Below, in pieces: positions 21,460-48,800 of a DNA stretch of 64,000 nucleotides (the first letter of the stretch is position 1; every line of letters starts with the position of its first letter). A program made the translations under genes and the position numbers. The DNA is from Thermoguttaceae bacterium (GTDB taxonomy: Bacteria > Planctomycetota > Planctomycetia > Pirellulales > Thermoguttaceae): NCBI GenBank assembly GCA_017407125.1, contig JAFQXE010000025.1, positions 218,591 through 282,590 on the forward strand, given 5' to 3'. The notes under the pieces are model-generated. The model was not told the origin of the DNA, did not search any database, and saw only the letters and a program-made list of their open reading frames with translations.

Positions 21460-22299
21460 CTAATTCCCAAACCCCTTTAGAACTCTCAGCGCTTCTCGAC
21501 CTGCGCTGTCGGGGTCGTCAACATAGGGATACAGTTCGACGGTAACCCAGCCTTTGTAGCCGGACTTTTCGATGGCGTTGAGAATGGGCGGGAAGTCGAT
21601 AACTCCTTCTCCAGGAACGAGATGGTGATGAACGCGCTGTTCGTTGATGTCCTCGATGTGGTAATGGCGCGTATGCTCTTTGAGCGGTTCGATCCAGTCG
21701 ACGGGATTCTGTCCGACGCAGAAAGCGTGCCCAATGTCGAAGTTCAATCCCAGGCGGGGGCTGTCGATGCGGTCGGCGAATTCCAGATATTGTTCAAACT
21801 TCTCAATCAGCAGCTGCGGTTCCGGTTCGATGAGCAGATCAACGCCGACTTCTTCCGCAACCTCAATGCAAGGCATGATTTCTTCGTAGAAGACGTCGTA
21901 CGCCGCCTGACGCGTCATGCCGTCGGGAATCGGGCCGCCGGGATTGGTTTGAATATTCTTCGCGCCCAGCTGCGCCGCCAAGCGCAGACATCGCTTTGTA
22001 TGCTCTCGACGAATGGCGCGGTAGTCGGCAGACGGTTCAATCCAGGACGGGTGCCAGTACGGCTGGCGCGGGTCGGCAACGGCGTTCATCATGAAAGCGT
22101 TGACGTTGGAAATGGCAAGCCGACATCGTTCGAGGACGTCGCGGATGTTGTCAATCTGAACCGGCAGCAGCCCGGCGGGCCATGCGTGCGGGACGTCCGC
22201 TAGAAGTTCAATGGCGTGATATCCCAGCCGGGATACCTTCAAAACGGTCTGTTCAATAGTAAAATTACGGTAGGCGTTAGTACTGTAGGCGAATTTCAT
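21460..22299 (-). CDS. Sugar phosphate isomerase/epimerase (xylose isomerase-like TIM barrel)
   Basis: 279 residues. A complete AP-endonuclease-2/xylose-isomerase-like barrel: MKFAYSTNAYRNFTIEQTV at the start, LGAKNIQTNPGGP, LLIEPEPQ (metal-binding Glu), GLNFDIGHAFC (metal-binding Asp and His), HYHIEDI, and WVTVELYPYVDD with the C-terminal Glu. Cytoplasmic, with no signal sequence. Substrate unknown; paralogous in fold to 33446-34474. Heptamer repeats flank it on both sides. Confidence 0.85.
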   Translation of the reverse strand: MKFAYSTNAYRNFTIEQTVLKVSRLGYHAIELLADVPHAWPAGLLPVQIDNIRDVLERCRLAISNVNAFMMNAVADPRQPYWHPSWIEPSADYRAIRREHTKRCLRLAAQLGAKNIQTNPGGPIPDGMTRQAAYDVFYEEIMPCIEVAEEVGVDLLIEPEPQLLIEKFEQYLEFADRIDSPRLGLNFDIGHAFCVGQNPVDWIEPLKEHTRHYHIEDINEQRVHHHLVPGEGVIDFPPILNAIEKSGYKGWVTVELYPYVDDPDSAGREALRVLKGFGN

Positions 22300-22655
22300 G
22301 GGGAGGCAGTAGGCAGTAGGCAGTAGTATTTTAGTGTTTGATTCTAACTGATATTATATAAACTATTTTCTGCGATAAAAGGGGGGCAGTTTTTTAATGA
22401 GTATTAATAAAATTCTATATAGTCCGTAAATTTTTCATATTGACTAAAAGTCTTACTTGAGTAAAATATAGGCAGTAGGCAGTAGGCAAGAGACAGTAGT
22501 GATTCGCTTACGGGGGGCGGGTATTACCCGCCAAAAAACAAACAATATTTGACTATCGCGGACAATGTCCGCTCCCCGGAAATAACTCCTCACTCCTCCC
22601 TCCTCACTCCTAACTATTCCCAACTCCGTATTCCCCATTTCCCTATTACGAATCC
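22300..22655. repeat. Intergenic repeat block with double-hairpin element copy 1
   Basis: This 356-bp gap holds GGCAGTA heptamers (22303-22327 and 22470-22498), an AT-rich spacer, a double-hairpin element (22511-22579) and ACTCCTC/CCCTATT heptamers (22585-22650). The element consists of two palindromes, GGCGGGTATTACCCGCC and GCGGACAATGTCCGC, bracketed by CGGGGGG and CTCCCCGG that can pair with each other. The block from about 22490 to 22600 is nearly identical, in opposite orientation, to the insertion in lpxB. Confidence 0.8.
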
Positions 22656-29154: not shown

Positions 29155-30471
29155 CTAATAGTACATGTTCTTTAAAATAATCTCAGCAGCTTTTTCAGCG
29201 GCTCCGGGGCGGCAGACGTGGCTTTTGAGTTCTTCCAGCTTTTCTTTTTTCTGCTCGTATTCTTCCGGATCGGAAATCCAGGTGAGAATGTTTTCTGCGA
29301 TGGCTTCGGACTCGTCTCGAGCGGTCAGGAATTCCGGAAAGAGCGCTTCGCGAGGATTGGGGGCGATTGGCAAGTCTGGAGCGCGCACAGGAACTGCTCC
29401 GTATTCCAGCAAATTGACCAACGTGATATATTTCACTCTTCGGAAAATGCTTTGAAGGAACATTCCCAGCCAGCTGGTTTTGTAAAGAATCGCGGTTGGA
29501 ATCTCATGGTAAAGCAGTTCCAAAGAAACGGAGCCGGAAACCGCCATGACAGCGTCTGAAGACGCTATAATCTTCGACGCAGCGCCCACTTCAATAACGA
29601 TGTCGTCCAGTCGGGCTTTCGCCGCTTTAGGAGCGATGATTCCCCAATGCTCGTCTTTGAACGCGCCTACTCGAAACTGAATCGGCGTGGCTGATACTTG
29701 GGCAAATTGTTCCTGAATAATTCGCGCCGCCTTGAGCATGGTTGTAATATTCTGCTCGACTTCCTGAGTGCGCGAGCCGGGCAGGATGCCTATTTGGATA
29801 GTTTTTTTCGGCGAGTCGTTGGGTGAGGAGTGAGGAGTTATTTCCGGGGAGCGGACATTGTCCGCGCTAGTCAAATATTGTTTGTTTTTTGGCGGGTAAT
29901 ACCCGCCCCCCGTAAGCGAATCACTACTGCCTATTCCCTCTTCCCTATTCCCTAGCTCAAACTTCTCCGTTTCGTCAAAAAACGGATGCCCAACATAGAT
30001 GCATCTGCATCCTTGATCCTGAAACCATTGCGTTTCAAACGGCAAACCGGACAGAATGCAGTCCACCCATTTCCGCATCTTTCGGACTCGCCACTGCGCC
30101 CAGCCCCAGATCTGAGGCGGCGAATAATAATATACGGGAATTCCAGCGTTATGAGCGCGTTTGGCGATATGCCAGTTAAAGCCGGGATAGTCAATCAGGA
30201 CGACGGCGTCCGGCTTTTCAATTTCAAAATAGTCCTGCGCCTGGGAGGCAAGACTGAAAAAAGTATTGATGTTCCATAAAACGCGTCCCAGCCACATCAC
30301 AGCCAAAGACGTCAGATCAAACATCAGTTCCGCCCCCGCTTCCTGCATTTTGGGACCGCCGAAGCCAACGCATCGCAATTCCTCGCCTGTATAGGCGGCT
30401 TTTAGCGCTCGAATCAAGTTGGCGCCATGGATGTCCCCGCTGGGCTCTCCAACAGAAAAGAATATTTTCAT
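29155..30471 (-). CDS. lpxB: Lipid-A-disaccharide synthase with repeat-derived insertion
   Basis: 438 residues against about 380-390 usually. LpxB joins UDP-2,3-diacylglucosamine and lipid X, in lipid A synthesis at the inner membrane. Motifs: FFSVGEPSGDIHGANLIRAL at the N-terminus, IDYPGFNWHIAKRA, YYSPPQIWGWAQWRVRKM, YVGHPFFDE, and ILPGSRTQEV. Between YVGHPFFDETEK and ILPGSR, which are normally close, about 49 residues (171-219) are encoded by heptamer arrays and a double-hairpin element, in frame. The rest is intact, so an expressed protein is likely. Start at 30471 overlaps the SelA-like stop (ATGA); the longer frame is an artefact. Confidence 0.92.
   Translation of the reverse strand: MKIFFSVGEPSGDIHGANLIRALKAAYTGEELRCVGFGGPKMQEAGAELMFDLTSLAVMWLGRVLWNINTFFSLASQAQDYFEIEKPDAVVLIDYPGFNWHIAKRAHNAGIPVYYYSPPQIWGWAQWRVRKMRKWVDCILSGLPFETQWFQDQGCRCIYVGHPFFDETEKFELGNREEGIGSSDSLTGGGYYPPKNKQYLTSADNVRSPEITPHSSPNDSPKKTIQIGILPGSRTQEVEQNITTMLKAARIIQEQFAQVSATPIQFRVGAFKDEHWGIIAPKAAKARLDDIVIEVGAASKIIASSDAVMAVSGSVSLELLYHEIPTAILYKTSWLGMFLQSIFRRVKYITLVNLLEYGAVPVRAPDLPIAPNPREALFPEFLTARDESEAIAENILTWISDPEEYEQKKEKLEELKSHVCRPGAAEKAAEIILKNMYY
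29815..29958. repeat. Repeat block inserted inside lpxB (double-hairpin element copy 2)
   Basis: Contains the element core 29844-29912 (palindromes GCGGACATTGTCCGC and GGCGGGTAATACCCGCC) with ACTCCTC heptamers on one side and CCCTATTC heptamers on the other. Core and flanks are nearly identical to 22490-22600 inverted. The length keeps the lpxB frame and no stop codon occurs in the coding direction. Confidence 0.85.
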
Positions 30472-31829
30472 CTTATAAATGCCTCTACTAACGCTATGTC
30501 CTGACTGGGCAGAACCGTTCTCATATCCAAAAACAGGAATCTTTCCGCTGCGGTTCCCAAAACGGCGGGAGAGCCTTGAGTCAATCGTTTGCCTAATTCC
30601 GCTGGCGTCATGCCTTTCGGTTGAACAGCAATTCGGCATGTTGGCAGTTTTATTGACAGCCACTGATTGTCGATCGTTGACTGCTCTACGATTTCCGTTT
30701 GCGCGGAGTCCACCCAGTCGGAAACGACGATCTGCTTTTGAATTCGCTGCGCCCGATTGGCAAGATTGGCTTCGGAAAAATGCAGAATCTGTTCAATGGG
30801 AATCGAATTGACGCCGCGGTCTGGCTGAGAGTACAGCAACAGCGTCTGCTCCAGCGCCGCCAATAAATATGGACTGCAAAGCGTCGCCTTCGCCAGCAAG
30901 TCCGCTCGACACAGGTCGATAAACGCTTTTCGTCCTAAAATCATTCCGCAAACGGGACCGCCAAACAACGCCCCGCTTTGCATAATAACAACGTCCGCCC
31001 CGTCTGTCAAGGCAGAAGCCGCGCTGACGGTATCTTTGCCGCCTATCAGACCTGACAAGCCAATGTCGACAATAAGCGGAATCTTGCGAAGCTTGGCGAT
31101 TTTAGACATCTCCGCGATAGTCGGCTGAACGCGGCCAGATTCTTTTTCCGTAGCGGAGTAGATGTACAAAAACGCTCGAACGTTTTCCGGAACGGATGAG
31201 AAATCGTCTGCCGTCGTCCGGTTGACGCTTCCGACTTCAATCGTTGAGCATCCCAACTCCTGAAGAATGTCAGTAATCCGACAGCCGGAAGGAAGTTCGA
31301 ATAACTGTCCTCGACTTATCGCGACAGGGGCTGAGGCATTTTGCCCCGCCCGTTTATTCAAGGCGTGAAGAACCAAAGCCCAGCCGGCTGTCGCCGTATT
31401 GACGGGCATAACGCTTTCCGCGCCAGCAAGCTGATTGATCAGGGATTCTACGCTTCTAAGAAACTGAGCGTTGTCCCATTTTCCGACTGGGCGCCCCATC
31501 GCCGCGTAGTCTTTAGCCAAATCCGTCATGACGTTAATCGCCTGACCTGCCAGCGGCGCCGATCCCAATTCCGGGGGAAACAGACGTCCGGTCGCGTTTA
31601 TCGTCGGAACAAGACGCGCCGGCTCGTTTTGCAGCAGCTTGTCTGCAATCCGATCCGCAACTTCCGTTACCGTCGGCAAGGACATGTCCAGAGCCGACTC
31701 TTTGGTCTGGAGCGCCAGTTCGCCCAAGACCAAAAGAGCGGTCGATACAACTTCACCCCGGTTGAGCTTGGTTATCAGCCCCTTTACCAGCGGGACTTCA
31801 AGGATTTCGTTTATGGTTGGAAGATTCAT
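30468..31829 (-). CDS. SelA-like PLP-fold protein without the PLP lysine
   Basis: 453 residues, similar in length and layout to L-seryl-tRNA(Sec) selenium transferase: an N-terminal helical domain with VPTINATGR near residue 80, AISRGQLFELPSGCRITDI, EVGSVNRTTADD, and VDIGLSG. In the segment that in SelA reads SGDKLLGGP, this protein has QSGALFGGP, so the residue that should form the Schiff base with PLP is Ala (codon GCG). Other changes are VMTDLAKDYAAMGRPVGKW in place of the usual glycine/arginine-rich loop. It is probably not a selenium transferase. It overlaps lpxB by 4 bp; heptamers lie directly upstream. Confidence 0.7.
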   Translation of the reverse strand: MNLPTINEILEVPLVKGLITKLNRGEVVSTALLVLGELALQTKESALDMSLPTVTEVADRIADKLLQNEPARLVPTINATGRLFPPELGSAPLAGQAINVMTDLAKDYAAMGRPVGKWDNAQFLRSVESLINQLAGAESVMPVNTATAGWALVLHALNKRAGQNASAPVAISRGQLFELPSGCRITDILQELGCSTIEVGSVNRTTADDFSSVPENVRAFLYIYSATEKESGRVQPTIAEMSKIAKLRKIPLIVDIGLSGLIGGKDTVSAASALTDGADVVIMQSGALFGGPVCGMILGRKAFIDLCRADLLAKATLCSPYLLAALEQTLLLYSQPDRGVNSIPIEQILHFSEANLANRAQRIQKQIVVSDWVDSAQTEIVEQSTIDNQWLSIKLPTCRIAVQPKGMTPAELGKRLTQGSPAVLGTAAERFLFLDMRTVLPSQDIALVEAFIR

Positions 31830-36339: not shown

Positions 36340-36497
36340 AGAGGGAATAGGGAATGGGGAATAGGGAATAGGGAATAGGGAATGGTTTAAGGAGTGGTAA
36401 GTGGTAAGTAGTAAGTGGTAAGTTAGACAAGCGCTTGCGTACTAACCACTAACCACTAAAAACTCATAACTACTCCCTATTCCCTACTCCCTGCTCC
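36340..36497. repeat. GGAATAG, GGTAAGT and CTAACCA heptamer arrays
   Basis: The gap between the epimerase and the lipoprotein gene consists almost entirely of 7-mers: GGAATAG (36345-36385), GTGGTAA/GTAAGTG (36392-36425), a spacer GCGCTTGCGTAC, then CTAACCA (36440-36460) and CCCTATT (36472-36495). The same order and the spacer with GCTTGCGT recur at 44277-44345. Confidence 0.75.
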
Positions 36498-37661
36498 CTA
36501 ATTCAGCGGCGCAATGTTCATTAAAATGGACGGCGTGGAATCCTCAATGGATTCTGGATTGACAGGAATGGCGGCTGACGGCGCTTCCTCGGCAGGTCGA
36601 ATCAATGACGTCTGAACGACAGGAATGACGTTATATTCAGACGGGATTTGACGCGCTGTTGACGCGGGAGACGTTTTTGCAACAATCGGGTTTCCCGTTG
36701 CCAGATTGGCGACTTCATGATAGCCCAGCGAACAGAAATCCGATTCTGTCATAACGGCGCCAGTATTTTTTACTGTTACCATTCGGGTGTTATCGAGGCG
36801 ATTCTTCAGTTCATGAGGAACGTCTTTATTATTAGACAATCCAGGCAGGGTTTGGGAATCAAATGAAGACGGAGAATCTGGCGGCGTTATCGGATAAGCG
36901 GGATTCGTTCCCTGCTGAGCAGGGGCTTTTGGCGAAGGCGAGGAAGTCGATGGCGAGAATTCGGATTCAAATCGATTGGGATCCAAACTTCCCGGTAAAA
37001 ACGAACCCTGAGAAGGCGTATACGCCTGCGCTTCACTTTCGGAAATTTCCGTCTGATATTGAACCGGCGCGATATCATTGTTGTTTCGAGTTGAATCAGA
37101 CGCGATTGCTGGAGAAACCGGCGCTTGAATTGGATTGATATTCGGAACGGGCGGCATGTCAGGCAGCGGCGGCATAGCCGGGTTGGTTTCGGAATTAGAA
37201 GCAATTTGTGAGGAAGGAGGCGTTATCGGCGAAATGTCCATTGGCGAGGCGTTTTCTTCTTTATAGGCAACTGGAGCCGCGTTTTTAGACGCGTCGGCGT
37301 TTGCCTGAGCCGTCATTCGTTCTACAGCCGCGTAATTCTCCGCCGGATTGGCTGGCGGTTGATTGAGTTGATCCAGAGATTCGTTATATTTTGGACCGCT
37401 CGGGTTAGAATATCCGCTGTCTGCCAGACGATGTTCTCCCAGAGCAATGGTCGCTTCCGATTTGGCTTTTTTTGCCGGAGGAATTATGTCGCCGTCCGTT
37501 TGAACAGCTTGATGATTTTCTTTATACGTAGCCAACTGATCGGATTTATCCATGTCTTTACGACCAAAAGACCATTTCGAGCCGCCTGTACTGCGACAGC
37601 CAACAAGCGAAACGACGACTAATAACGCCGTGAGCGCCAATCGGAGCTGAAATCTGTTCAT
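36498..37661 (-). CDS. Lipoprotein of unknown function, low complexity
   Basis: About 387 residues. The N-terminus (MNRFQLRLALTALLVVVSLVGCRS) is a lipoprotein signal with lipobox LVGC; the start is set at 37661 to give this. The rest is rich in Pro, Ser, Asn and Ala with no domain recognised, and reads as a disordered, surface- or envelope-attached protein; the C-terminus (LMNIAPLN) is short and hydrophobic. Possibly a planctomycete-specific envelope protein. No operon partner. Confidence 0.7.
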   Translation of the reverse strand: MNRFQLRLALTALLVVVSLVGCRSTGGSKWSFGRKDMDKSDQLATYKENHQAVQTDGDIIPPAKKAKSEATIALGEHRLADSGYSNPSGPKYNESLDQLNQPPANPAENYAAVERMTAQANADASKNAAPVAYKEENASPMDISPITPPSSQIASNSETNPAMPPLPDMPPVPNINPIQAPVSPAIASDSTRNNNDIAPVQYQTEISESEAQAYTPSQGSFLPGSLDPNRFESEFSPSTSSPSPKAPAQQGTNPAYPITPPDSPSSFDSQTLPGLSNNKDVPHELKNRLDNTRMVTVKNTGAVMTESDFCSLGYHEVANLATGNPIVAKTSPASTARQIPSEYNVIPVVQTSLIRPAEEAPSAAIPVNPESIEDSTPSILMNIAPLN

Positions 37662-38072: not shown

Positions 38073-39557
38073 ATGAAACGATTATTTATTTGCATCGCGG
38101 CGCTTTTGCTTTTTATTTCTGCTGCTCAGGCAGGAGAGAAAAAAGCTCTTCTTATTATGTTGGATGGACAGCGCGCAGACGCTATGTACACAGCGCCCAC
38201 GCCCAACTTCGATTCTCTCCGCAACGGAACCTGGGCGGAAGGATATAAGGGCGCGTATACGTTCCAGTCGCATACCAACCTGGAATCGGCGCCGTCCAGC
38301 GCAACCAATCACGTTGCCATCGCAACCGGCGTTACCGCCAAAAAGAATGAAGTTTACAAAAACGGTCAGACGTTCAAAGGAAAGTATGACGAGTATCCAA
38401 CGTGGATGCAACGACTGCGAAAAGCCGACCCGAACATCGTTTCCGTTTGGCTGTACAACTGGAGCGAAGATGGACACATTCCCGCAGACGCCACGTATCA
38501 AAACACCCGAGGCGGCGGCGTTGACGGCGACGTCAAAATTATCGACGAGACTATTCAGATTCTCAACGGTACGCTCCCCGACACGCAAGGCGTCAAAGAT
38601 ACAAAATGGACAAACGGCGCCGATGTCGACGCGATTATGCTCTATCTGGATTCTCTGGATATGTTCGGACATCGTTATGGATTCTCCGTCAACGTGAACG
38701 AATACTATGACGCAGTCAAATTCTACGACGAAAAAATCGGAAAAATTCTCGACGCCATCAAGAGCCGTCCCAACTTCGCAAACGAAGACTGGATGATTGT
38801 TATTGCCTCTGACCACGGAGGAATCTATCGCACTCACGGCGTTGTCGGATGCAAAAACTGTTATACGATTCCGTTGATTGTCAGCGCCAAAGACATCGAA
38901 GCTGGCAAGATGGCGGGTCAGCCGCAAAACTGCTGCTCGGCTGCGTATTTGATGAAGCACATGACCGGTTCCGTTCCGGAAGAATTTGACGGATACATTC
39001 CTCAAACCGCTCCGGAAACGCCAGCTAACCTCGATAATCCAATTACCAACGTCGCTGACTTGAAAGCCGGCTGCCCAGCTAACGATTTCAGCTTTGTTAT
39101 CTGGTTCAAGGCGAACGGAGCTCAGGAAGGCGACCCGGCTATCGTTTCCAATAAAGACTGGAACAGCGGACGCAACCCGGGAATCGCGCTGGCAGCGTTC
39201 GACCTGAAAGGCGAGCCGGCTTTTACGCTTAATTTGGGCGACGGCAAAAATCGAGACGACTTCCGCCCAATGTTCTACAAGAACAACGAATGGACGTTTA
39301 TTGCTGTAACAGCTCAAAAGGGCGGCAATGCGATGTTGTTTGTCGGAACGCAAAACGGACGCCTGGCGTTTATTTCCGACGATATCTCCGAGATTAAATC
39401 GTTCTCTTCCAATTTGAACTGGAACATTGGCGAAGACGGCACGGGAAACTATAAGAGCAAGCTCAACGGAGAAACAAAGGGCTTCCAGTACTGGCCTTCC
39501 GTTTTGACGATTGATCAGATTAACGAGCTGTATAAAAAGGGACTTGAAGACAAATAG
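38073..39557 (+). CDS. Secreted alkaline-phosphatase-superfamily phosphodiesterase with LamG-like domain
   Basis: 494 residues with signal peptide (MKRLFICIAALLLFISAAQA). The first ~310 residues are a type I phosphodiesterase/nucleotide pyrophosphatase-like fold: LIMLDGQRADAM (metal Asp), ATNHVAIATG (nucleophile region), DSLDMFGHRYG (metal Asp/His), IVIASDHGGIYRTHG (metal Asp/His). The C-terminal ~150 residues (FSFVIWFKANGA ... NEWTFIAVTAQKGG) resemble a LamG/concanavalin-type sugar-binding domain. Probably releases phosphate or nucleotides outside the cytoplasm. Start chosen at 38073 because of the signal peptide and GGGG-type ribosome-binding site. Confidence 0.85.
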   Translation: MKRLFICIAALLLFISAAQAGEKKALLIMLDGQRADAMYTAPTPNFDSLRNGTWAEGYKGAYTFQSHTNLESAPSSATNHVAIATGVTAKKNEVYKNGQTFKGKYDEYPTWMQRLRKADPNIVSVWLYNWSEDGHIPADATYQNTRGGGVDGDVKIIDETIQILNGTLPDTQGVKDTKWTNGADVDAIMLYLDSLDMFGHRYGFSVNVNEYYDAVKFYDEKIGKILDAIKSRPNFANEDWMIVIASDHGGIYRTHGVVGCKNCYTIPLIVSAKDIEAGKMAGQPQNCCSAAYLMKHMTGSVPEEFDGYIPQTAPETPANLDNPITNVADLKAGCPANDFSFVIWFKANGAQEGDPAIVSNKDWNSGRNPGIALAAFDLKGEPAFTLNLGDGKNRDDFRPMFYKNNEWTFIAVTAQKGGNAMLFVGTQNGRLAFISDDISEIKSFSSNLNWNIGEDGTGNYKSKLNGETKGFQYWPSVLTIDQINELYKKGLEDK

Positions 39558-39615
39558 TTTTCGATAGACGACCGGCGAGCCGTGCGGAAGCCGAGCGGAC
39601 AGAAGGGTAATGTTT

Positions 39616-39699
39616 GCGGGGCGCGGACATTCCGGGGAGCGGACATTGTCCGCGATAAATAATATGTAAGTTTTTTAGGCGGGTAATACCCGCCCCCCG
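39616..39699. repeat. Double-hairpin element copy 3 (with partial duplication)
   Basis: Core at 39632-39699 with palindromes GCGGACATTGTCCGC and GGCGGGTAATACCCGCC between CGGGGAG and CCCCCCG. A partial extra left arm (GCGGGGCGCGGACATT, 39616-39630) precedes it. Located between the phosphodiesterase and the tRNA-Arg promoter. Confidence 0.75.
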
Positions 39700-39773
39700 T
39701 AAACGTTGCATCATATTTTATGCCCTCCAATTTTGAACGCACCCCTCTCCGATTTTTTGCGGTTCTTCCCGCC

Positions 39774-39801
39774 TTGACAAAAACCTTTTTTTCGCTATAT
39801 T
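39774..39801 (+). promoter_or_regulatory. Promoter of tRNA-Arg
   Basis: TTGACA (39774-39779), 16-bp spacer, TATATT (39796-39801), about 23 bases before the tRNA. Confidence 0.65.
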
Positions 39802-39823
39802 AAAGATGCTTTAAATGAGTTGC

Positions 39824-39897
<74 letters not shown>

Positions 39898-39903
39898 TCG
39901 TTT

Positions 39904-39938
39904 GCCCTTGCAATAATTTGCAGGGGCTTTTTCTTTCT
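39904..39938 (+). terminator. Terminator after tRNA-Arg
   Basis: A 10-bp stem (GCCCTTGCAA, loop, TTTGCAGGGGC, 39904-39927) is followed by TTTTTCTTTCTT. Confidence 0.85.
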
Positions 39939-40028
39939 TGAAACAATCCTTGTTTTCTTTGAGAACCTGCAAAGTCATTAACAAATTAAAGTGAAGACTC
40001 ATTGTATTATAACGTCTATTCATAACGT

Positions 40029-40562
40029 CTATTCAGAGGTCTGCGCTTTATACTGTTGAATAATCCAGTCCGCAATCTGCTCTGCGGCAAGAGCGTCTGT
40101 ATCGACGCTGACGTCGGCGGTTTGCTCGTACCAGGATTTTCGCATGTTGAGCATTTTGATGATTTCTTCATACGGGGCGCTGTCCGTCAGGGCAGGGCGT
40201 CGCGTCGCGGTTGTTTCGTCAGAATACATGCGATTGTAAATCGTTTCTGCAGACGCCTGAAGCCAGACGACAAATGCGTTCTGCTTTAATCGTTCCCTGT
40301 TTTCCGGACGAATAACAACGCCGCCGCCTGTTGCGATAATCGTTTGAGCGCGCAAAAGCAGTTCCGCTGTAACGGTTGATTCCAAATCGCGAAACCCGGA
40401 TTCTCCGGACTGCTGAAAAATCTGAGCGATCGTTTTTCCCGCCGCTCGTTCAATTTCGACGTCAGCGTCGACCCAGTTCCAGCCGGGAAGTCGACTTGCC
40501 AGTTCTTTGGCAACCGTTGTTTTGCCTGTTGCGCGATAGCCGATTAAAGCAATGTTTTTCAT
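40029..40562 (-). CDS. aroK: Shikimate kinase
   Basis: 177 residues, standard length. Phosphorylates shikimate in chorismate synthesis. Walker A GYRATGKTT at the N-terminus, WVDADVEIERAAGKTIAQIF (shikimate-binding Asp region), FRDLESTV, the GGGVV loop, RRPALTD in the lid. The P-loop has Arg where Gly is frequent. No other aro gene is near. Confidence 0.93.
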   Translation of the reverse strand: MKNIALIGYRATGKTTVAKELASRLPGWNWVDADVEIERAAGKTIAQIFQQSGESGFRDLESTVTAELLLRAQTIIATGGGVVIRPENRERLKQNAFVVWLQASAETIYNRMYSDETTATRRPALTDSAPYEEIIKMLNMRKSWYEQTADVSVDTDALAAEQIADWIIQQYKAQTSE

Positions 40563-40595
40563 TTCGTGAGATGCGGATTAAACAGGATTTTAAAC

Positions 40596-40641
40596 AAAAA
40601 AATAAGCTGTCAGGACAAATCGTTTTCATCCTGACAGCTTA
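40596..40641 (-). terminator. rpsA terminator
   Basis: Perfect 13-bp stem TAAGCTGTCAGGA (40603-40615) / TCCTGACAGCTTA (40629-40641). On the minus strand it is followed by a run of T (40595-40602), 19 bases after the rpsA stop. Confidence 0.9.
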
Positions 40642-40659
40642 CTGTTACAACATCAAATA

Positions 40660-42465
40660 CTATTCATTGTCCGGGTTGAGGGAGAACAAGGGCTTTCCAT
40701 CGCCGCCGCCCAAACCGCCTTTGAGTTCGGTTGCAGGCGTCGACTTGGCGCTCGGAGCGGCTCCTTCTTCAGCAGCGTCCTGAGCGGCTTCTTCTTCGTT
40801 CGACCATTCAACGCGTTTGCGGGACAGACCGATTTTGCGTTCGTCAATGTCAACGCGAAGAATCTTGACTTCGATTTCTTCGTCAACGTGAACGACTTCT
40901 TCCGGATTGTCAACTTTGTGATCCGCCAGTTCGCTGATGTGCAGCAAACCTTCCAGACCGTCTTCCAAACGAACGAAAACGCCAAAGTTGGTGATCTTGG
41001 TAACTTTGCCCTTGACCAGCTGACCAGCGGCAAAGCGTTTCGGAATATCGGAAGTCCACGGATCTTCGGTCATCTGCTTGAGACCCAAAGCAATGCGGCG
41101 GCTCTTTTCGTCGACCGACAGAACCTTGCATTCGATAACCTGATCTCTCTTGACCATTTCAGACGGATGGCTGACTTTGCGAGTCCAGGACATGTCGGAA
41201 ACGTGAAGAAGACCGTCGATGTTTTCGCGAATCTGAATGAACGCGCCGTAGTTGGTGAGGTTGCGAACCGTACCGGTAACAACGGATCCAACCGGGTATT
41301 CCTGAGCGACTTCTTTCCAGGGATCGGGAGCGGTCTGCTTCATGCCCAAAGAGATTTCTTTCTTCTCTTTGTTGATTCCCAGAACGACAACTTCGACTTC
41401 GTCGCCGAGGCTGACCAGTTCGTTCGGATGATTGATGCGCTTCGTCCAGGACATCTCGGAAATGTGGATAAGTCCTTCGATTCCTTCTTCCAGCTTGGCG
41501 AAAGCTCCGTAATTGGTAATGCTGACGATCGTTCCCTTGACTTTGGCGCCAACGGGATACTTTTCGGCAACCTGTTCCCACGGGCTGGGCTGCTTCTGCT
41601 TCAGACCGAGAGAAATCTTTTCCTTTTCGCGGTCGATGGACAGAATTTTGACTTCGATCTGATCGTCAATTTTGAGCATTTCAGACGGATGATTGATGCG
41701 TCCCCAAGACATGTCTGTAATGTGGAGCAAACCGTCGATGCCGCCCAGGTCGACGAACGCGCCGAAATCGGCAATGTTCTTGACCGTACCCATGCGAAGC
41801 TGACCTTCCTGCAGTTCGGAGAGAAGCTTCTGTTTTTGTTCTTTGCGTTCTTCTTCAATCAGAGCGCGGCGGCTGACAACGATGTTGCGGCGCGCTTCGT
41901 CGATTTTGAGAACGACGCACTTGATCGGCTTGCCGATGAAATCAGCAATGTCGCTGGGGCGACGAATGTCAACCTGAGAGGCCGGCAAAAAGACGTTGAC
42001 GCCAATATCGACCAGCAAACCGCCCTTGATTTTGCGGGTAACTTCGCCTTCGACGATGTCGCCTTCGTGAACCTGCTTCATGACGTTTTCCCAAGCTTCG
42101 ATCTTTTCGGCCTTGCGCTTGGAGAGCATAAGCATGTCGCGGCTTTCCTGGGGTTTTTCAGATTCCTCATCCTCTTCGATGAGAGCTTTGATAGTTTGTC
42201 CAATCTGAGGAGCTTCTTCGTCTTCGCCCCATTCGTCGCGTTTAATTGCGCCTTCGCTCTTGGATCCGATGTCAACCAGGACGAATTCTTTATCGACACG
42301 AACGATAACGCCTTCAACAATGCGGTTAGCGCCGAATTCTTCCGGAGTGCGCCATTCTTTACCTGCATCCAGATCCTGATTGTCTAACGCCTGGTTAAGT
42401 TCAGCTTCCCAATCCGCAAGGTGAGCGGCTGCGTCCAAATTGTGCACCAAATTACGATTTACCAT
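40660..42465 (-). CDS. rpsA: 30S ribosomal protein S1
   Basis: 601 residues with six S1-type OB-fold domains. The first two are divergent (KEFVLVDIGSKSEGAIKRDEW; GGLLVDIGVNVFLPASQ), the others show the typical IADFGAFVDLGGIDGLLHITDMSW, ITNYGAFAKLEEGIEGLIHISEMSW, LTNYGAFIQIRENIDGLLHVSDMSW and ITNFGVFVRLEDGLEGLLHISE motifs. S1 helps bind mRNA to the 30S subunit. The extreme C-terminus is acidic and Gly-rich. Strong terminator after the stop. Confidence 0.96.
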   Translation of the reverse strand: MVNRNLVHNLDAAAHLADWEAELNQALDNQDLDAGKEWRTPEEFGANRIVEGVIVRVDKEFVLVDIGSKSEGAIKRDEWGEDEEAPQIGQTIKALIEEDEESEKPQESRDMLMLSKRKAEKIEAWENVMKQVHEGDIVEGEVTRKIKGGLLVDIGVNVFLPASQVDIRRPSDIADFIGKPIKCVVLKIDEARRNIVVSRRALIEEERKEQKQKLLSELQEGQLRMGTVKNIADFGAFVDLGGIDGLLHITDMSWGRINHPSEMLKIDDQIEVKILSIDREKEKISLGLKQKQPSPWEQVAEKYPVGAKVKGTIVSITNYGAFAKLEEGIEGLIHISEMSWTKRINHPNELVSLGDEVEVVVLGINKEKKEISLGMKQTAPDPWKEVAQEYPVGSVVTGTVRNLTNYGAFIQIRENIDGLLHVSDMSWTRKVSHPSEMVKRDQVIECKVLSVDEKSRRIALGLKQMTEDPWTSDIPKRFAAGQLVKGKVTKITNFGVFVRLEDGLEGLLHISELADHKVDNPEEVVHVDEEIEVKILRVDIDERKIGLSRKRVEWSNEEEAAQDAAEEGAAPSAKSTPATELKGGLGGGDGKPLFSLNPDNE

Positions 42466-42863
42466 TTAGAAGTACCTATGAAACCGATGACAGGGCGCGT
42501 CTAAAGGTTTCGACTGTTTTATCTTGAGGACGCCCTTCTTTTTCGGCGGCTCACTATGATCCGCAAATCGAAAAAGAGCAATTGTTTCTTAATGTTGCGA
42601 TTCTATATATTGAGAACTCCTCAATTATATCGCAAATACATAGTCCACTAAATATACCAGATTTGACGATTTTCTCAAGGGGGTAGCAATATTTTTTTGA
42701 AAAGAAATAAAAAATAATTCAAAAAATGCTCAAGATGGAAATATAAAACTGAGCAATAATGTCGTTAAATAAGCGTGTTTGGGATAAATAGGAGTTTTAG
42801 CTCAGATCGTTTTTGCAACGCCAGACAAAAACAACTTCGTAATAAACGCTTTAAAATAAAAAT
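42466..42863. other. rpsA leader and AT-rich spacer
   Basis: On the minus strand the rpsA leader contains a G+C-rich hairpin (AGGGCGTCC ... GACGCGCCCT, about 42493-42535), possibly a site for S1 autoregulation (inference). The part 42660-42863 is very AT-rich without recognisable signals; no gene is supported. Confidence 0.4.
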
Positions 42864-42938
42864 TGGGCGTGCATGGACTCGAACCATGGACCTCGTCCTT
42901 ATCAGGGACGCGCTCTAACCAAACTGAGCTACACGCCC
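42864..42938 (-). tRNA. tRNA-Ile (anticodon GAT), copy A
   Basis: Cloverleaf on the minus strand: acceptor GGGCGTG / CACGCCC with discriminator A, D-arm GCTC...GAGC, anticodon stem CGTCC/GGACG with loop CTGATAA (GAT), T-arm ATGG...CCAT. No encoded CCA. Identical to copy B. Confidence 0.95.
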
Positions 42939-43007
42939 GCAAAATCTTGGTTGATGTTAAGCCAACCCCGGATTTTAACGGCTGTAAGAAAAAATCCTGA
43001 AAAACAC

Positions 43008-43082
43008 TGGGCGTGCATGGACTCGAACCATGGACCTCGTCCTTATCAGGGACGCGCTCTAACCAAACTGAGCTACACGCCC
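43008..43082 (-). tRNA. tRNA-Ile (anticodon GAT), copy B
   Basis: Same 75-base sequence as copy A, 69 bp upstream of it in the direction of transcription. Both copies stand apart from any rRNA gene, unlike the usual spacer location of tRNA-Ile(GAT). Confidence 0.95.
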
Positions 43083-43299
43083 GCAATGTTTCTTTCAAGG
43101 AAATATCTCCTACAAGATTTTAATAGGATAAACTTTTTTGAGAAATTGTCAATGGGGAGGGGAGAAAGTTTCGAAAAAGGAATGAAAATAACGGAACTTT
43201 TAGACGTTAAACCTTAAAAAATCCGGTCTTTACAGAATCGTTTGGTGAAAATTTGGATTTTTTACGTTCTTTGCCCTGTACTTTATTGGAATTATACGT

Positions 43300-43305
43300 T
43301 ATAAT
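43300..43305 (+). promoter_or_regulatory. Probable -10 box for the MurB-like gene
   Basis: TATAAT at 43300-43305, 57 bp before the start, in an AT-rich gap (43083-43361) with no gene. No good -35 hexamer is present. Confidence 0.35.
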
Positions 43306-43361
43306 TCTAGTTAAGAACTGTTCCAGCGACGGTAGGAATAGCATTATTATCCATATATCAA

Positions 43362-44249
43362 ATGACAATTAACATGTGGTGCGATCCGTTTAAATCGATT
43401 ATTCGTCAAGACGAACCGTTAGCCATGCACACGTGGTTTCAAACTGGCGGCATGGCAGAATATTACGCTCAACCTGAAACTCAAGCTCAAGCGGCAGAAC
43501 TGGTTGCCGCGGCGTCAGACGCCGGTATTCCGATTCGATTGTTGGGCGAGGGTTCCAACGTCCTCATTCGCAACGACGGCGTTTCCGGGCTGGTTATAAG
43601 TCTGGACAGCCCGGCGTTTAAGGAAATCGTTGTTGAAGGAAACTGTATCAAAGCGGGCGCGGCGGCTCGGCTTGGACGCGTTGTAACTACAGCCGTTCAT
43701 GCTGGATTGGCGGGTCTGGAAGACTTTATCGGCGTTCCCGGGTCGGTCGGCGGAGCTTTGCACGTTCACGTTGCCGCCAACATGACGAAAATCAGCCGTT
43801 GCCTTAAATCTACGCTTGAAATGGACTTTCAAGGGAAGATATTCGATAAAACCTCAGAAGAGCTTGCTGCTACGTATCAGGACAAGTCTCTCAACTCGCT
43901 TATTATTCTCGAGACGCTCTTCGAACTGGAACCGGACGATCCCAAAGCGCTCGCTCAACAGATGCAGAAACGCTGGATTCTGAAAAAATCCCAGCAGCCG
44001 ATGAGTTTTCAATGCTGCGGACGCATTTTCAAAAGTCCCACAGGCGCGTCTGCTGGCGAATTAATCGACAGGGCAGGGCTTAAAGGCGCCCGCATCGGAG
44101 GAGCCGTCATTTCTGAACGGCACGCGAACTACATCATTGCGGAACCGGAGTGCTCGTCTGAAGATATTATTCGCCTGATTGACCTCGTTCGAGATCAGGT
44201 TCATAAACGAACGGACGTCCTTCTGGATCTGGATTTGGAAATTTGGTAA
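43362..44249 (+). CDS. MurB-like FAD-binding protein with altered active site
   Basis: 295 residues, length of UDP-N-acetylenolpyruvoylglucosamine reductase, the enzyme that makes UDP-MurNAc for peptidoglycan. FAD-binding features are clear: HTWFQTGGMAEYYAQP, IPIRLLGEGSNVLIRNDG, FIGVPGSVGGAL, AGELIDRAGLKGARIGGAVISERHANYII. But the catalytic Ser/Cys in the usual SAGSxFKNP-type motif aligns with Arg in QCCGRIFKSP, and the usual YRxS motif reads YQDKS. Glycine- and Asn-rich residues after PGSVGGAL are also replaced (HVHVAANMTK). It may be an inactive or repurposed paralogue. The planctomycete wall makes a second, true murB likely elsewhere. Confidence 0.75.
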   Translation: MTINMWCDPFKSIIRQDEPLAMHTWFQTGGMAEYYAQPETQAQAAELVAAASDAGIPIRLLGEGSNVLIRNDGVSGLVISLDSPAFKEIVVEGNCIKAGAAARLGRVVTTAVHAGLAGLEDFIGVPGSVGGALHVHVAANMTKISRCLKSTLEMDFQGKIFDKTSEELAATYQDKSLNSLIILETLFELEPDDPKALAQQMQKRWILKKSQQPMSFQCCGRIFKSPTGASAGELIDRAGLKGARIGGAVISERHANYIIAEPECSSEDIIRLIDLVRDQVHKRTDVLLDLDLEIW

Positions 44250-44382
44250 AAAAGGCAGTAGGCAATAGGCAGTAGGCAGTAGTTAGTGGTAAGTGGTAAG
44301 TTAGATGAACGCTTGCGTCCTAACCACTAACCACTAAAAACTTATTACTAATACCTATCACAACTCGCAACTCATTAAATTC
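44250..44382. repeat. GGCAGTA, GGTAAGT and CTAACCA heptamer arrays
   Basis: Units AGGCAGTAGGCAATAGGCAG (44253-44283), GTTAGTGGTAAGTGGTAAGT (44284-44305), the spacer GAACGCTTGCGTCC, CTAACCACTAACCACTAAAAAC (44320-44342), and CAACTCG. Same order as 36392-36460. Confidence 0.75.
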
Positions 44383-45192
44383 ATGCGATTTTTATTCATT
44401 CTCCTGCTGACGCTTTCGACTAGCGCGATAGCTCAAGACGCAGCCGCTGACGCAGCGCCAGCTCCTGTTGAGAGCTTTCAGCAGCAAACTCCTGCTCAAG
44501 CAGTTCAACCGGAAGTTCAAACGCAGTCAACCTTTTGGACGATTATCAGCGCAGGCGGAACAATCGGTTTGTTGATTTTCGCTCTATCGATTGCCAGCTT
44601 GACTTTAGCGATTGACCAGTTGCGAAAGCTCCGAAAGTCGGCGTTCATGCCGGAAGGACTGGCGCAACAGACGCGGGAATTGATTTCTCAGGGACAGCTG
44701 TTACAGGCAGATCAGTTGTGCCGGCAGTCGCCGTGCTGTTTGTCATACGTGATTAATGCTGGTTTGACCGAAGCGGACGGGGATTGGACGGACATCGAAA
44801 AGGCTCTGGAAGATTCGCTGGCGGAGCAGTCGGCGCAGTGCGGACGTAAAATAGAAATCTTGTCGGTAATCGGGAACATTGCCCCTATGTTAGGGCTGTT
44901 GGGAACGGTCGTCGGCATGGTTTATGCCTTTAGCGAACTGGCGAACACGCAGGGAACCCCCAAGCCGGCGGAGTTGGCGCAGGGCATCTATCTGGCTCTT
45001 GTTACAACGGTTGAAGGGCTTATTGTCGCGATTCCTTCGTTGGCTGCATTTGCCTATTTCCGAAGCCGATTGGATCAGATTATTACAGAAGTCGCATTTC
45101 AGGCGCAGTACGTTTTCATTCCGTTAAAGCGGCAGCTTCGCGCCGGTCGCCGCGTTGGCGCAACTATCCAGGCTCCACCAAAAAAGGCCTGA
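44383..45192 (+). CDS. MotA/TolQ/ExbB-type proton channel protein
   Basis: 269 residues. Signal peptide or N-terminal anchor (MRFLFILLLTLSTSAIAQ), a Pro/Ala-rich linker, then the MotA/TolQ/ExbB domain: TM1 (FWTIISAGGTIGLLIFALSIASL), a cytoplasmic helical loop, and TM2-TM3 with NIAPMLGLLGTVVGMVYAF and LAQGIYLALVTTVEGLIVAIPSL. Such subunits carry protons to power transport with an ExbD/TolR partner. No exbD or tonB is adjacent, which is unusual. Confidence 0.88.
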   Translation: MRFLFILLLTLSTSAIAQDAAADAAPAPVESFQQQTPAQAVQPEVQTQSTFWTIISAGGTIGLLIFALSIASLTLAIDQLRKLRKSAFMPEGLAQQTRELISQGQLLQADQLCRQSPCCLSYVINAGLTEADGDWTDIEKALEDSLAEQSAQCGRKIEILSVIGNIAPMLGLLGTVVGMVYAFSELANTQGTPKPAELAQGIYLALVTTVEGLIVAIPSLAAFAYFRSRLDQIITEVAFQAQYVFIPLKRQLRAGRRVGATIQAPPKKA

Positions 45193-45216
45193 CGCCATTC
45201 AGAGAACCTCTTAATT

Positions 45217-45328
45217 TTTTAAACACGAAATACACGAAATAAGCGAAAAAGACGAAATAATTTTAAAATATATTTTTAAAAATTTTCGTGTCCTTTCGTT
45301 CTATTCGTGTTTTTCGTGTTTTAAAAAA
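45217..45328. repeat. ACACGAA long hairpin copy 2
   Basis: Starts AAACACGAAATACACGAA and ends TTCGTGTTTTTCGTGTTTTA with an AT-rich centre, an imperfect 110-bp hairpin. Follows the ExbB-like gene. Confidence 0.7.
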
Positions 45329-45348
45329 CTACTGCCTACTGCCTCTTG

Positions 45349-45467
45349 CCTCCGTGGGTTAAAACCCACGGCTACTGATATTGAACCGCTAAAGCGGTTC
45401 TAGCGGATGCGCAAAGCGCCTCACAGAATTTTCTCGCAACTCGCAACTCGCAACTCGCAACTCGCTA
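45349..45467. repeat. Three short palindromes and CTCGCAA heptamers
   Basis: CCGTGGGTTAAAACCCACGG, GAACCGCTAAAGCGGTTC and GCGCAAAGCGC are lined up at 45353-45413, then CTCGCAA 7-mers (45433-45463). They lie between convergent genes and may end transcription. Confidence 0.6.
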
Positions 45468-46511
45468 CTAATTCTTCAGCGCTTTTCTCGCCGCTTTTTT
45501 AACGTAGACGTTATCGTCTTCAACGGCTTTGACAACGGCGGATTCAGCGTCTTTGTTGTCCATTGCCAGCCCCAAAGCGCGAATCGCCCAAACGCGAGTT
45601 AAATCGTTTTCGGATTCCGCCAGCGGCAGAACGCTTTCAACGGGAATCGCATAGTCGTTGGCAACTCCCTTTTCTTTGTACAGACAAATAGCGCGCAAGG
45701 CGCGGCGGCGAGCGACGTCGGTTTCGTTCGCCAGCAAACTGTGAACGGCGTCGTATTGTTTTTTGAGCATAAGAACGGTTCCGCAGTCGCGGGCGATGTC
45801 GTCTGAACCGGACTTTTCCAGAAGAATCGCCATTGTTCTATAGAAATCGGACAAGTCTTTCGAGTCGTCCTGCGCCAGGGAAATCAGTTCCGACAGAGCG
45901 GCGATTCGATTGAGCGTTGAGTTCTTTTTGAGCATTCCCAGCAAAGCGTCTTTTCCCTTCTGAGCGTTTGGCGAATCCGCCGGGGCGACTTTCCATAACG
46001 CTGCCGCGACCGCTGCCTTGACGGGTTCAATTAACTCAGATTGAGGGGCGTCGCCGGGTTCCGGTTCCGACCCGTCAAGCGGCGTTCCGTCCAGTAAAGC
46101 GGCCAGCGATTCTGCCGCCGATTCCGCTTCTGTCCCAAAGGCGCCTAACGACTGAGCTGTGCAAATACGAACGGCGTCCATTTTGGACTTAAGCGCTTCG
46201 GTCAACGTGGGAATCGCCTTTTTGTCCTGAATTCGACCCAGCGCCCAGGCACAGACTGCTCGCGTGTACTCGTATTCTTTGATATCCAGCAACCGTTCGC
46301 ACAATGCGTCGACGGCGGACGCTGCCGGCGCCCCGATTTCTCCCAGAGCGTACCCGGCATACCATCGCGTTCTGTTTTGAAGGTTTTCCGTCGATTCCGT
46401 TTTGGTCAGTCGAGCAGTCCAGTACGCGGCGTCTTTGCCGTTAAAAGTTCCTTCTTGAGCAAACAGGATTGTCGAGAATAACGTCAGCAGAGTAAAAAGT
46501 ATCGTTCGCAT
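45468..46511 (-). CDS. Exported HEAT-repeat protein
   Basis: 347 residues from the ATG at 46511 with signal peptide (MRTILFTLLTLFSTILFAQ). The first half has HEAT/PBS-lyase-like repeats: RWYAGYALGEIGAPAASAVDALCERLLD, AVCAWALGRIQDKKAIPTLTEAL, AVRICTAQSLGAFGTEAESAAESL; similar units at the end (RVWAIRALGLAMDNKDAE). It is probably a scaffold in the periplasm; partner unknown. Convergent to the ExbB-like gene. Confidence 0.8.
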   Translation of the reverse strand: MRTILFTLLTLFSTILFAQEGTFNGKDAAYWTARLTKTESTENLQNRTRWYAGYALGEIGAPAASAVDALCERLLDIKEYEYTRAVCAWALGRIQDKKAIPTLTEALKSKMDAVRICTAQSLGAFGTEAESAAESLAALLDGTPLDGSEPEPGDAPQSELIEPVKAAVAAALWKVAPADSPNAQKGKDALLGMLKKNSTLNRIAALSELISLAQDDSKDLSDFYRTMAILLEKSGSDDIARDCGTVLMLKKQYDAVHSLLANETDVARRRALRAICLYKEKGVANDYAIPVESVLPLAESENDLTRVWAIRALGLAMDNKDAESAVVKAVEDDNVYVKKAARKALKN

Positions 46512-46550
46512 GTTGTTTATAATATTGTTAGTTGCGAGTAGCGAGAGGAT

Positions 46551-46658
46551 TTTTAACACGAAATACTCGAAATAAGCGAAAAAGACGAAAGAATTTTAAA
46601 AAATATTTTTAAAAATTTTCGTGTCCTTTCGTTCTATTCGTGTTTTTCGTGTTTAAAA
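46551..46658. repeat. ACACGAA long hairpin copy 3
   Basis: TTAACACGAAATACTCGAAA at the left, TTCGTGTTTTTCGTGTTTAA at the right, with the same centre as copy 2. Lies between hpt and the HEAT gene. Confidence 0.7.
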
Positions 46659-46674
46659 AACTACTGCCTATTGC

Positions 46675-47208
46675 CTAATCTTGCATCCAAATATCCGGCA
46701 AATTTCTGTATCGTTCAGCAGCGTCCATGCCGTAGCCGTAGAGGAATTTGTTTGGAGCGGGCAAGCCGGGGAAATCGACCACGACGTCGGCTTCTCGCCG
46801 TTCCGGTTTGTCAATCAAAGCCGTGACCTTGACGGACGACGCGCCGTTACGCATACAGTATTCCCGCAGCTTGTTAATCGTCCAGCCGGAATCGACGATG
46901 TCTTCGATGAGCAGGACGTGACGCCGTTCCATGCTTATGGACGACGAATGCTGTATTGTAACCGTCCCGCTGGTGTGAGTGGCGTTTCCGTAACTGGACG
47001 CTCGAATGAAATCGATATCCAGGGGCGTTTTCATTTCGCGGACGAGGTCGGCGGCGAAAATAACGGCTCCTTTCAAAATGGCGATCGCCAGCAGCGGCCG
47101 TTCCGGCGTACAGACCCCGACGGGGGAATACCATTCGTCAATCTGTTTCGCCAAACTCGACACGTGCTCGGCTATCTCTTTTGCGGAATACAGGATCTTC
47201 GGTTCCAT
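46675..47208 (-). CDS. hpt: Hypoxanthine phosphoribosyltransferase
   Basis: 177 residues, normal length. Salvages hypoxanthine/guanine with PRPP. The PRPP loop VLLIEDIVDSGWTIN is intact, with Trp in place of the more usual Lys/Arg/Leu after DSG. LAIAILKGAVIFAADLVREM and the C-terminal FLYGYGMDAAERYRNLPDI (purine-binding region) are typical. Start ATG at 47208 with GGAG-like sequence upstream. Confidence 0.93.
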   Translation of the reverse strand: MEPKILYSAKEIAEHVSSLAKQIDEWYSPVGVCTPERPLLAIAILKGAVIFAADLVREMKTPLDIDFIRASSYGNATHTSGTVTIQHSSSISMERRHVLLIEDIVDSGWTINKLREYCMRNGASSVKVTALIDKPERREADVVVDFPGLPAPNKFLYGYGMDAAERYRNLPDIWMQD

Positions 47209-47384
47209 GGCTTTTTCATTCTCCTTTCATATACAATATTATAATCAGATGAGAATATTTTACAAGTGGCGCGACGAGAAGATTAGAACAAGAACGAAAG
47301 ACACGAAAAAAGGGAAGCGTCAATCGACATTCCCGTTTTGATTATTGTTTGTATTGCAAGAGGTTACTGGACGTTGACACCGTT

Positions 47385-48587
47385 TTACTGGAAAAACGCG
47401 TCGATTTCAGCTTTGCTGGATTTGAGCTGGGCTTTGATTTGGAGCAGGTTTTTCTGCTGCGTCAGGACGTCTTTTTTGAACGTCTGGAGCTGAGTGAGGC
47501 TGACTTCGCCGCGGTCGGCGCCTTGCTGCAGCGCGGAGAGCGTCTGCTGCTGTTCCGGTTCGATGTTATTTTGGAAATATTCCAGCTGTTCGTATGCGGT
47601 TTTGTAACTGATAAAGGCGTCGACGAGTTTTTTCTGGATCGCCAGCGCCGCCGATTCCGTTTCGGACTGCGCCTGGCAGATCTGGGCTTGCGCCTGGGCG
47701 ATCGCCCCCTGATTTTTGTTACGCAGCGGGAACGGGACGGAAACCGTTACAAGACCGGTCGTGTATCGGGACGAGCAGTCGTACTGAACGCCCGCTTCGA
47801 CGGTAACGTTGGGCTTTGCCCGCGCGACTTCCGCATGGTACTGGGCGCTGGCGATAAGGTAATTCGTCTGCGCTCGCGCCAATTCCGGCGACTGGCTTTC
47901 CAACCGCGATATAATGTCTTGCCATTCCAGTTTCTCATCGGGGGTGTCGAGAACGTCTTCCATGACGTCCGCCGGCAAATCCGGGTTTCCGACGCAGCAC
48001 GCCAGCTGTTTCCACGCCTTCCAGTACAGCGTTTTCGACTGCTGACATTCCCAGTCGGCGTTTTTCATTTCCAGCCGAACCTGATAGACGTCCGCCAAGG
48101 TAATCTGCCCGCTTTTGTATAAGGACTCGGATTTTTCGAGCTGATTCCGGACGATGTCGCAAATTTTTTCGTTGTAGTCGACGATGCGGCGCGCCAGCAT
48201 GACCTCATATGCCGCCTGACGGACTTCTTTAATTACCATCAGCCGCGCGACGGAGTAGTCGTACTGAGCGGCGAGGATTTCCTGATCGACGACGTGCTGA
48301 TCTTTGCGGAGTTTGTCTGCCGTTACGATTTCCTGACTAATCGTACCGCCCTGAAAGCCGGCTCTGCCGTCGTTTCCCATTTCCGCGCCGGTATAGCTGA
48401 AAACCGGATTCGGACCCAGCCCCGCCTGGAGTCGTTTGCCTTGCAACGCCTGGATTTTTTGTATTTCCGCCCTCAGAGCGGGATGGAAACTCTGAGCCTG
48501 CGTTTCCAGCTCCGCCAGAGTGTACGCATCCGCCGTCGTTACGCTTAACGCTGCGATGAGAATTACCAGTCCAAAGGCGTGTTTCAT
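47385..48587 (-). CDS. TolC-family outer-membrane efflux protein
   Basis: 400 residues. Signal peptide (MKHAFGLVILIAALSVTTADA) followed by two TolC-type coiled-coil repeats (LETQAQSFHPALRAEIQKIQAL ... SESLYKSGQITLADVYQVRLEMKNA; AQTNYLIASAQYHAEVARAKPNVTVEAGVQYD ... RGEVSLTQLQTFKKDVLTQQKNLLQ). Third gene, 213 bp after the RND pump gene with a repeat in between; it forms the outer-membrane exit of a CzcCBA/CusCBA-type metal efflux system. Confidence 0.9.
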   Translation of the reverse strand: MKHAFGLVILIAALSVTTADAYTLAELETQAQSFHPALRAEIQKIQALQGKRLQAGLGPNPVFSYTGAEMGNDGRAGFQGGTISQEIVTADKLRKDQHVVDQEILAAQYDYSVARLMVIKEVRQAAYEVMLARRIVDYNEKICDIVRNQLEKSESLYKSGQITLADVYQVRLEMKNADWECQQSKTLYWKAWKQLACCVGNPDLPADVMEDVLDTPDEKLEWQDIISRLESQSPELARAQTNYLIASAQYHAEVARAKPNVTVEAGVQYDCSSRYTTGLVTVSVPFPLRNKNQGAIAQAQAQICQAQSETESAALAIQKKLVDAFISYKTAYEQLEYFQNNIEPEQQQTLSALQQGADRGEVSLTQLQTFKKDVLTQQKNLLQIKAQLKSSKAEIDAFFQ

Positions 48588-48727
48588 AATCTAAAACGTT
48601 TTGTATCAAGGTATTATGAAAAATCAACAATAGTTGACGTCTATAATCCTTATTCGGATTATTCGTTATAATCGGAATAATCGATACAGAACTTTAGGGG
48701 TATGGAGTTGAAAGGCGTAAACGCTTT

Positions 48728-48794
48728 CGGGGAGCGGACATTGTCCGCGAAATCAAAGGTTGATTGTATTTAGGCGGGTAATACCCGCCCCCCG
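48728..48794. repeat. Double-hairpin element copy 4
   Basis: CGGGGAG, palindrome GCGGACATTGTCCGC, 22-bp spacer, palindrome GGCGGGTAATACCCGCC, CCCCGG. It ends 6 bp before the stop of the RND pump gene and separates it from the TolC gene, so it may affect the operon's relative expression. Confidence 0.8.
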
Positions 48795-48800
48795 GAAACA

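Follow-up and report, generated by a model that had tools for sequence, protein, structure and literature searches.

The window analysed here, a stretch of 64,000 nucleotides, corresponds to contig C32:218591-282590 of a 4.44-Mb draft genome (G000), whose nearest named relative found is the Thermoguttaceae genome RGIG7588 from water-buffalo omasum. The initial annotation had described four copies of a double-hairpin element, and these are indeed present (Table 1): each palindrome has exactly four occurrences in the window, always paired with the other, whereas dinucleotide shuffles gave means of 0.28 and 0.12 chance matches, respectively. Copy 1 corresponds to the covariance-model match G000:C32:241094-241174. 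Copy 3 adjoins a truncated half-element with the end GCGGACATT and has a phosphodiesterase/sulfatase-like gene upstream of it. Copy 4 stands, as had been noted, between two metal-efflux genes, one for an outer-membrane efflux protein and one for a CusA/CzcA-family RND pump.

The assignment of the gene around copy 2 to lpxB holds as well (PF02684, E 1.7e-63), and the copy is in frame; according to the reading frame it is translated as TGGGYYPPKNKQYLTSADNVRSP. This insert adds about 23 residues to the LpxB linker preceding IGILPGSRTQE, the length of which is hypervariable among four congeneric species. Judged by its sequence, the linker is apparently built from translated short (heptamer) repeats, and the in-frame copy would be an example of a mobile hairpin absorbed into a protein linker. 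Heptanucleotide tandem repeats of the types GGAGTGA, AGGCAGT and GGTTAGT are dense throughout the window, and 32 of 84 element copies have such a repeat no more than 60 nt away, compared with 13% of random window sites.

Table 1. Features of the window (window coordinates)
Feature	Position	Strand	Details
TIM-barrel gene	21460-22299	-	Neighbour of copy 1 on one side
Heptamer tandem repeats (examples)	22311-22510; 29820-29845; 29925-29960		
Element copy 1	22511-22578	-	H2 hairpin 22516-22532, spacer 22533-22557, H1 hairpin 22558-22572
ORF	22656		Neighbour of copy 1 on the other side
lpxB	29155-30663	-	True start probably MKIFFSVGEPSGD; copy 2 in linker of congener-variable length
Element copy 2	29844-29912	+	H1 29851-29865, H2 29891-29907; within lpxB reading frame
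Further interspersed repeats	36357-36500; 44253-44351; 45215-45462; 46528-46677		Many matches in three congeners
Element copy 3	39632-39699	+	H1 39639-39653, H2 39678-39694
tRNA genes (two)	42864-42938; 43008-43082	-	Equal Rfam score (72.2 bits); about 70 bp apart
Outer-membrane efflux gene	47385-48587	-	Neighbour of copy 4
Element copy 4	48728-48794	+	H1 48734-48748, H2 48773-48789
CusA/CzcA-type RND gene	48801-51983	-	Neighbour of copy 4

Structure of the element

The two palindromes had been called perfect. Both exist, but their centres are ATT and AAT, so that they are stem-loops with a 3-nt loop: H1 is GCGGAC-ATT-GTCCGC and H2, as read in the element, GGCGGGT-AAT-ACCCGCC. The outer CGGGG/CCCCG arms are present and contain a single bulged A, on the H1 side, and the proposed three-way closure was reproduced by ssDNA folding, in which the minimum-energy form of all four window copies consists of two hairpins shut by the outer arms. 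Folding z-scores of these copies, with copy 2 folded on both strands, ranged from -3.7 to -4.7 relative to dinucleotide shuffles, and a weak third hairpin in the spacer often accompanied the two-hairpin fold.

Read toward the hairpin, the halves are TTTCTGGGGA-GCGGAC-ATT-GTCCGC and, on the other strand, TTTACGGGGG-GCGGGT-ATT-ACCCGC; equally, the H1 half reads TTTCTGGGGA-GCGGACATTGTCCGC and the H2 half, on the opposite strand, TTTACGGGGG-GCGGGTATTACCCGC. Compared as 25-mers, the two are homologous and differ at about 6 positions; four of these differences form two compensated stem pairs (A:T to G:C and C:G to T:A). The element thus consists of two related units in inverted orientation, with the heads closing the structure, and this H1-spacer-H2 layout was seen in 84 copies. 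One more compensated pair is found in a diverged copy of the congener G003, GCGGATATTATCCGC, and one G000 copy carries AGCGGGTAATACCCGCT.

The internal hairpins are the best-conserved part of the element. It had been proposed that the spacer varies while the palindromes do not, and that structure is what is kept. The stems are near-invariant, but the spacer is itself constrained, being AT-rich, 5-28 nt long and of few recurring types. Compensatory change within the family did not exceed that in shuffles: among 64 copies, 3 pairs were changed on both sides, and 138 of 500 shuffles scored as high. Since the stems barely vary, this test is uninformative and gives no argument against pairing; for the same reason, covariation as proof of an RNA element was rejected. 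The case for kept pairing comes instead from the comparison of the H1 and H2 halves and from the diverged G003 copy.

Some copies are nested, a new head starting immediately after GCGGACATT; others lie in tandem as 77-bp units at C37:15-183. Tandem copies stand at the ends of contigs C37 (L071:1-190, beside the transposase gene described below) and C51 (L094:1-139), which suggests an unresolved tandem array.

Copy number and polymorphism

Genome-wide, G000 contains 83 exact H1 and 78 exact H2 palindromes, while a reversed-pattern control gave 0. A covariance model built from 64 copies matched at least 140 sites in G000, at least 128 in G001, 14 in G003 and 7 in G002; 150 candidates were scored per genome, and the G000 and G001 counts are possibly slightly low. 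The initial annotation had named a lack of both further copies and compensating changes as the outcome that would speak against it; what was found is about 140 copies, and compensated pairs between the halves. Among 101 family genomes, G000 had 144 occurrences of the core REP pattern, G001 115, G003 10 and G002 a single one, and the remaining 97 lacked it; no similar DNA was detected in a plasmid collection. The copies are dispersed over both strands and chiefly extragenic: of 38 that had long flanks, only 4, the lpxB copy among them, lie deep in a long ORF.

For window copies 1, 2 and 4, at least one congener lacks the element at the orthologous site. Copy 1 is absent from G001 at the corresponding site, and copy 2 from lpxB of G001, G002 and G003. 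At the site of copy 4, G003 has 11 nt in place of about 100, and the copy is not recognisable in G001 or G002. The empty-site junctions lie among heptamer repeats, which blurs the exact empty sites. The site of copy 3 is also occupied in G001 with another spacer type, and this difference suggests either that one copy converted another or that two insertions entered the same truncated unit independently. A repeat found uninterrupted at window positions 36357-36500 is split elsewhere by copy L004.

Target-site duplications of 2-9 nt showed no excess over shuffled pairings in 84 copies, whichever boundary was tested, as expected for HUH transposition. Polymorphic sites together with the lack of flanking duplications point to mobile DNA of HUH type rather than an RNA element. 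Prompted by the purine-rich left and pyrimidine-rich right flanks, we also tested for flanking inverted repeats, which reached a score of at least 10 in 12% of copies versus 4% of shuffled pairs. This small excess indicates insertion at the centre of pre-existing palindromes for a minority of copies at most. Elements lying between inverted repeats, as if inserted mid-palindrome, were seen at L024:1496, L085:2711 and L084:150.

A Y1 transposase flanked by the repeats and the probable origin of the family

The initial annotation had proposed looking for a RAYT-like transposase, and one was identified on contig C37: a Y1 HUH protein of 214 aa with repeats on both flanks. Its gene (C37:243-887), one of ten Y1_Tnp matches in G000, has the tandem 77-bp copies upstream and an H2 unit downstream. 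The protein carries the motifs NHVH, YIYNNP and DWPFSS and matches Pfam Y1_Tnp (PF01797) with 42.5 bits (cutoff 23). The best NCBIfam model was REP_Tyr_transpos (NF047646; 62.4 bits, below the curated cutoff of 80), and the best PDB sequence match, a weak one (E 0.005), was TnpAREP 4er8.

When 60 relatives were searched with the C37 RAYT and the 101 family genomes with the REP pattern, the pattern was abundant only where a near-identical form of this RAYT occurs (G000 and G001), and G003 holds its 10-14 copies without such an ortholog. The G001 protein is 92% identical, and the DNA downstream of its gene is closely similar. In this ortholog (L114:3001-3641), codon 19 is a stop and the frame breaks before codon 36, which may reflect decay or an assembly error; the catalytic core is open, and the REP family is large in G001 despite the broken 5' part.

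We consider it very probable that the elements are REPINs, i.e. mobile DNA of roughly 60-80 bp that is non-autonomous, consists of two REP halves in inverted orientation and is mobilised in trans by the C37 Y1/HUH RAYT. The window copies very probably owe their spread to a REP-type transposase whose gene lies elsewhere in the genome. The observations behind this reading are the architecture, the copy number, the RAYT linkage, the co-occurrence of RAYT and REP among four species, the polymorphism and the lack of target duplication. By the most likely mechanism, the hairpins would form while the element is single-stranded, for example on the lagging-strand template; the RAYT would read head and hairpin as a guide and cut beside them with its tyrosine, and the single-stranded unit would be moved or copied into another single-stranded site, the target bases not being duplicated. 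Single-strand cleavage and the guide role of the CYGG head are inferred, as is the mode of movement, be it excision or copying.

An alternative is that the double hairpin is mainly an RNA device, such as a terminator, an mRNA stabiliser or a processing site, under selection for RNA structure at operon junctions. Effects of REP elements on mRNA stability are known from other systems, either strand can form a stable structure, and one copy does lie between two efflux genes. However, copies are found on either strand and in some cases within coding frames, their sites are polymorphic between species, covariation did not rise above shuffles, and Rfam at the gathering score returned only tRNAs in the window, with no match at the element sites. 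In the scanned stretch 38500-49500, neither copy was listed as a terminator-like site, and a Rho-independent terminator was rejected on this ground. Altogether, an RNA device appears improbable.

Near-invariant palindromes spread over the genome would also suit chromosome-architecture or regulator sites, that is, palindromic operators bound by some host protein and having nothing to do with the transposase. This is very improbable, as the elements combine two distinct palindromes in inverted pairs whose heads are homologous, abundance tracks the RAYT ortholog, and nested and tandem copies are typical of mobile units. Hardly any weight is left for a classical MITE whose terminal inverted repeats are acted on by a DDE transposase: the unit is short and non-autonomous and its ends are inverted repeats of about 10 nt (GTTTMYGGGG), but the flanking duplications are missing, the repeats flank a Y1 transposase, and conservation is highest in the internal hairpins.

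Known REP systems and the head sequence

REPINs are among the commonest bacterial repeats, and most described families are proteobacterial or cyanobacterial. In the literature searched, which covered few subscription papers, we found no earlier description of a REPIN/RAYT system in this planctomycete genus; the system itself is of a known kind, and the head variant and the tag/residue pattern described below may be new. The REPINs and RAYTs of Pseudomonas fluorescens SBW25 (Bertels and Rainey, 2011; PMC3116915) are likewise inverted REP doublets with a spacer and predicted ssDNA hairpins, scattered or in tandem clusters and linked to a Y1 tyrosine transposase, with several families each near its own RAYT. 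They differ in sequence, in having GTAG where the present elements have a CYGG head and a 3-nt linker, and in that the halves have here diverged from each other (heterodimer). The GTAG-tagged REP superfamily, which has been reported in Planctomycetes, shares dimers with outward tags, heterodimers (HH), insertion in other palindromes and units within genes (Di Nocera et al., 2013; PMC3733652). The tag found here is CYGG, however, neither GTAG nor CGTC, and the GGGGWSAS motif of TIRYT-associated repeats is similar but unmatched (GGGGAGCG).

The C37 RAYT resembles TnpAREP subclass 2.4 (Quentin et al., 2018; PMC6006769) in NHVH, YIxNNP and size (214 aa versus a median of 194), and the repeats resemble those of this subclass in their long REPs, G-C pairs at the stem base and reported in-frame REP insertions. 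In contrast to subclass 2.4, W-N replaces W-Q and the REPs are without GT[AG]G. Rickettsia palindromic elements are also palindromic repeats translated in frame within genes, but the present family comes with a RAYT, and most of its copies lie outside long reading frames.

The head follows the plan CYGG-NNN-GCGG, i.e. CYGG and three bases before the GCGG stem. GT[AG]G, which most published RAYT-linked REPs carry at the hairpin foot (PMC6006769, PMC8266576, PMC3733652), was not found 0-2 nt 5' of it; the head reads CYGGGGA or ACGGGGG. At least five RAYT/REP lineages of the genus share this plan, other RAYTs being flanked by hairpin sets of their own: CCGGMTC-GCGGCAGTCCYCTGCCGC, CTGGTTC-GCGGGCGTCTTCGCCCGC, CTGGATC-GCGGCTGTGTCAGCCGC and CCGGGTC-GCGGACGAAGTCCGC. 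Hairpins of 18 nt with CYGGNTC numbered 79 in G000, 77 in G003, 48 in G001 and 49 in G002, with none in the control. In another family of the order, the G054 RAYT has CTGGGG heads, and several other RAYTs of the order have plain GTAG heads.

The glutamine of W-Q contacts GTAG in E. coli TnpAREP. At the positions making such contacts, the GTAG-head group has W-Q and H, and the genus RAYTs have W-N/S/F/Y/H/I/M and R/V. A rule based on Q95 alone was rejected, as G054 combines a CTGGGG head with W-Q and R. From these sequence comparisons we tentatively suggest that a planctomycete RAYT lineage may read a CYGG guide tag instead of GTAG, with changes of W94-Q95 to W-N/S/I/M and of H101 to R/V, so that several REPIN systems coexist within one genus, while the GTAG-head RAYTs of the order keep W-Q and H. 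Because the sample is small and related by descent, this pattern serves as a hypothesis only. The lack of GTAG has precedents, since atypical hairpins without it are already described for some classes of RAYT relatives (2.6 and 3; PMC6006769). The RAYT biochemistry found in the literature concerns GTAG-reading enzymes. A rumen planctomycete genus with several RAYT/REP pairs sharing another head, beside GTAG-head relatives, constitutes a natural experiment on guide reading. The C105/C191 RAYT lineage has other hairpins with no clear fit to the CYGG plan. In the lineage of G001:C191 (L229) and G002:C19 (L231), the flanking hairpins carry GTAG inside the stem (TGTAGCCCGG..CCGGGCTACA) and resemble "double foot" REPs.
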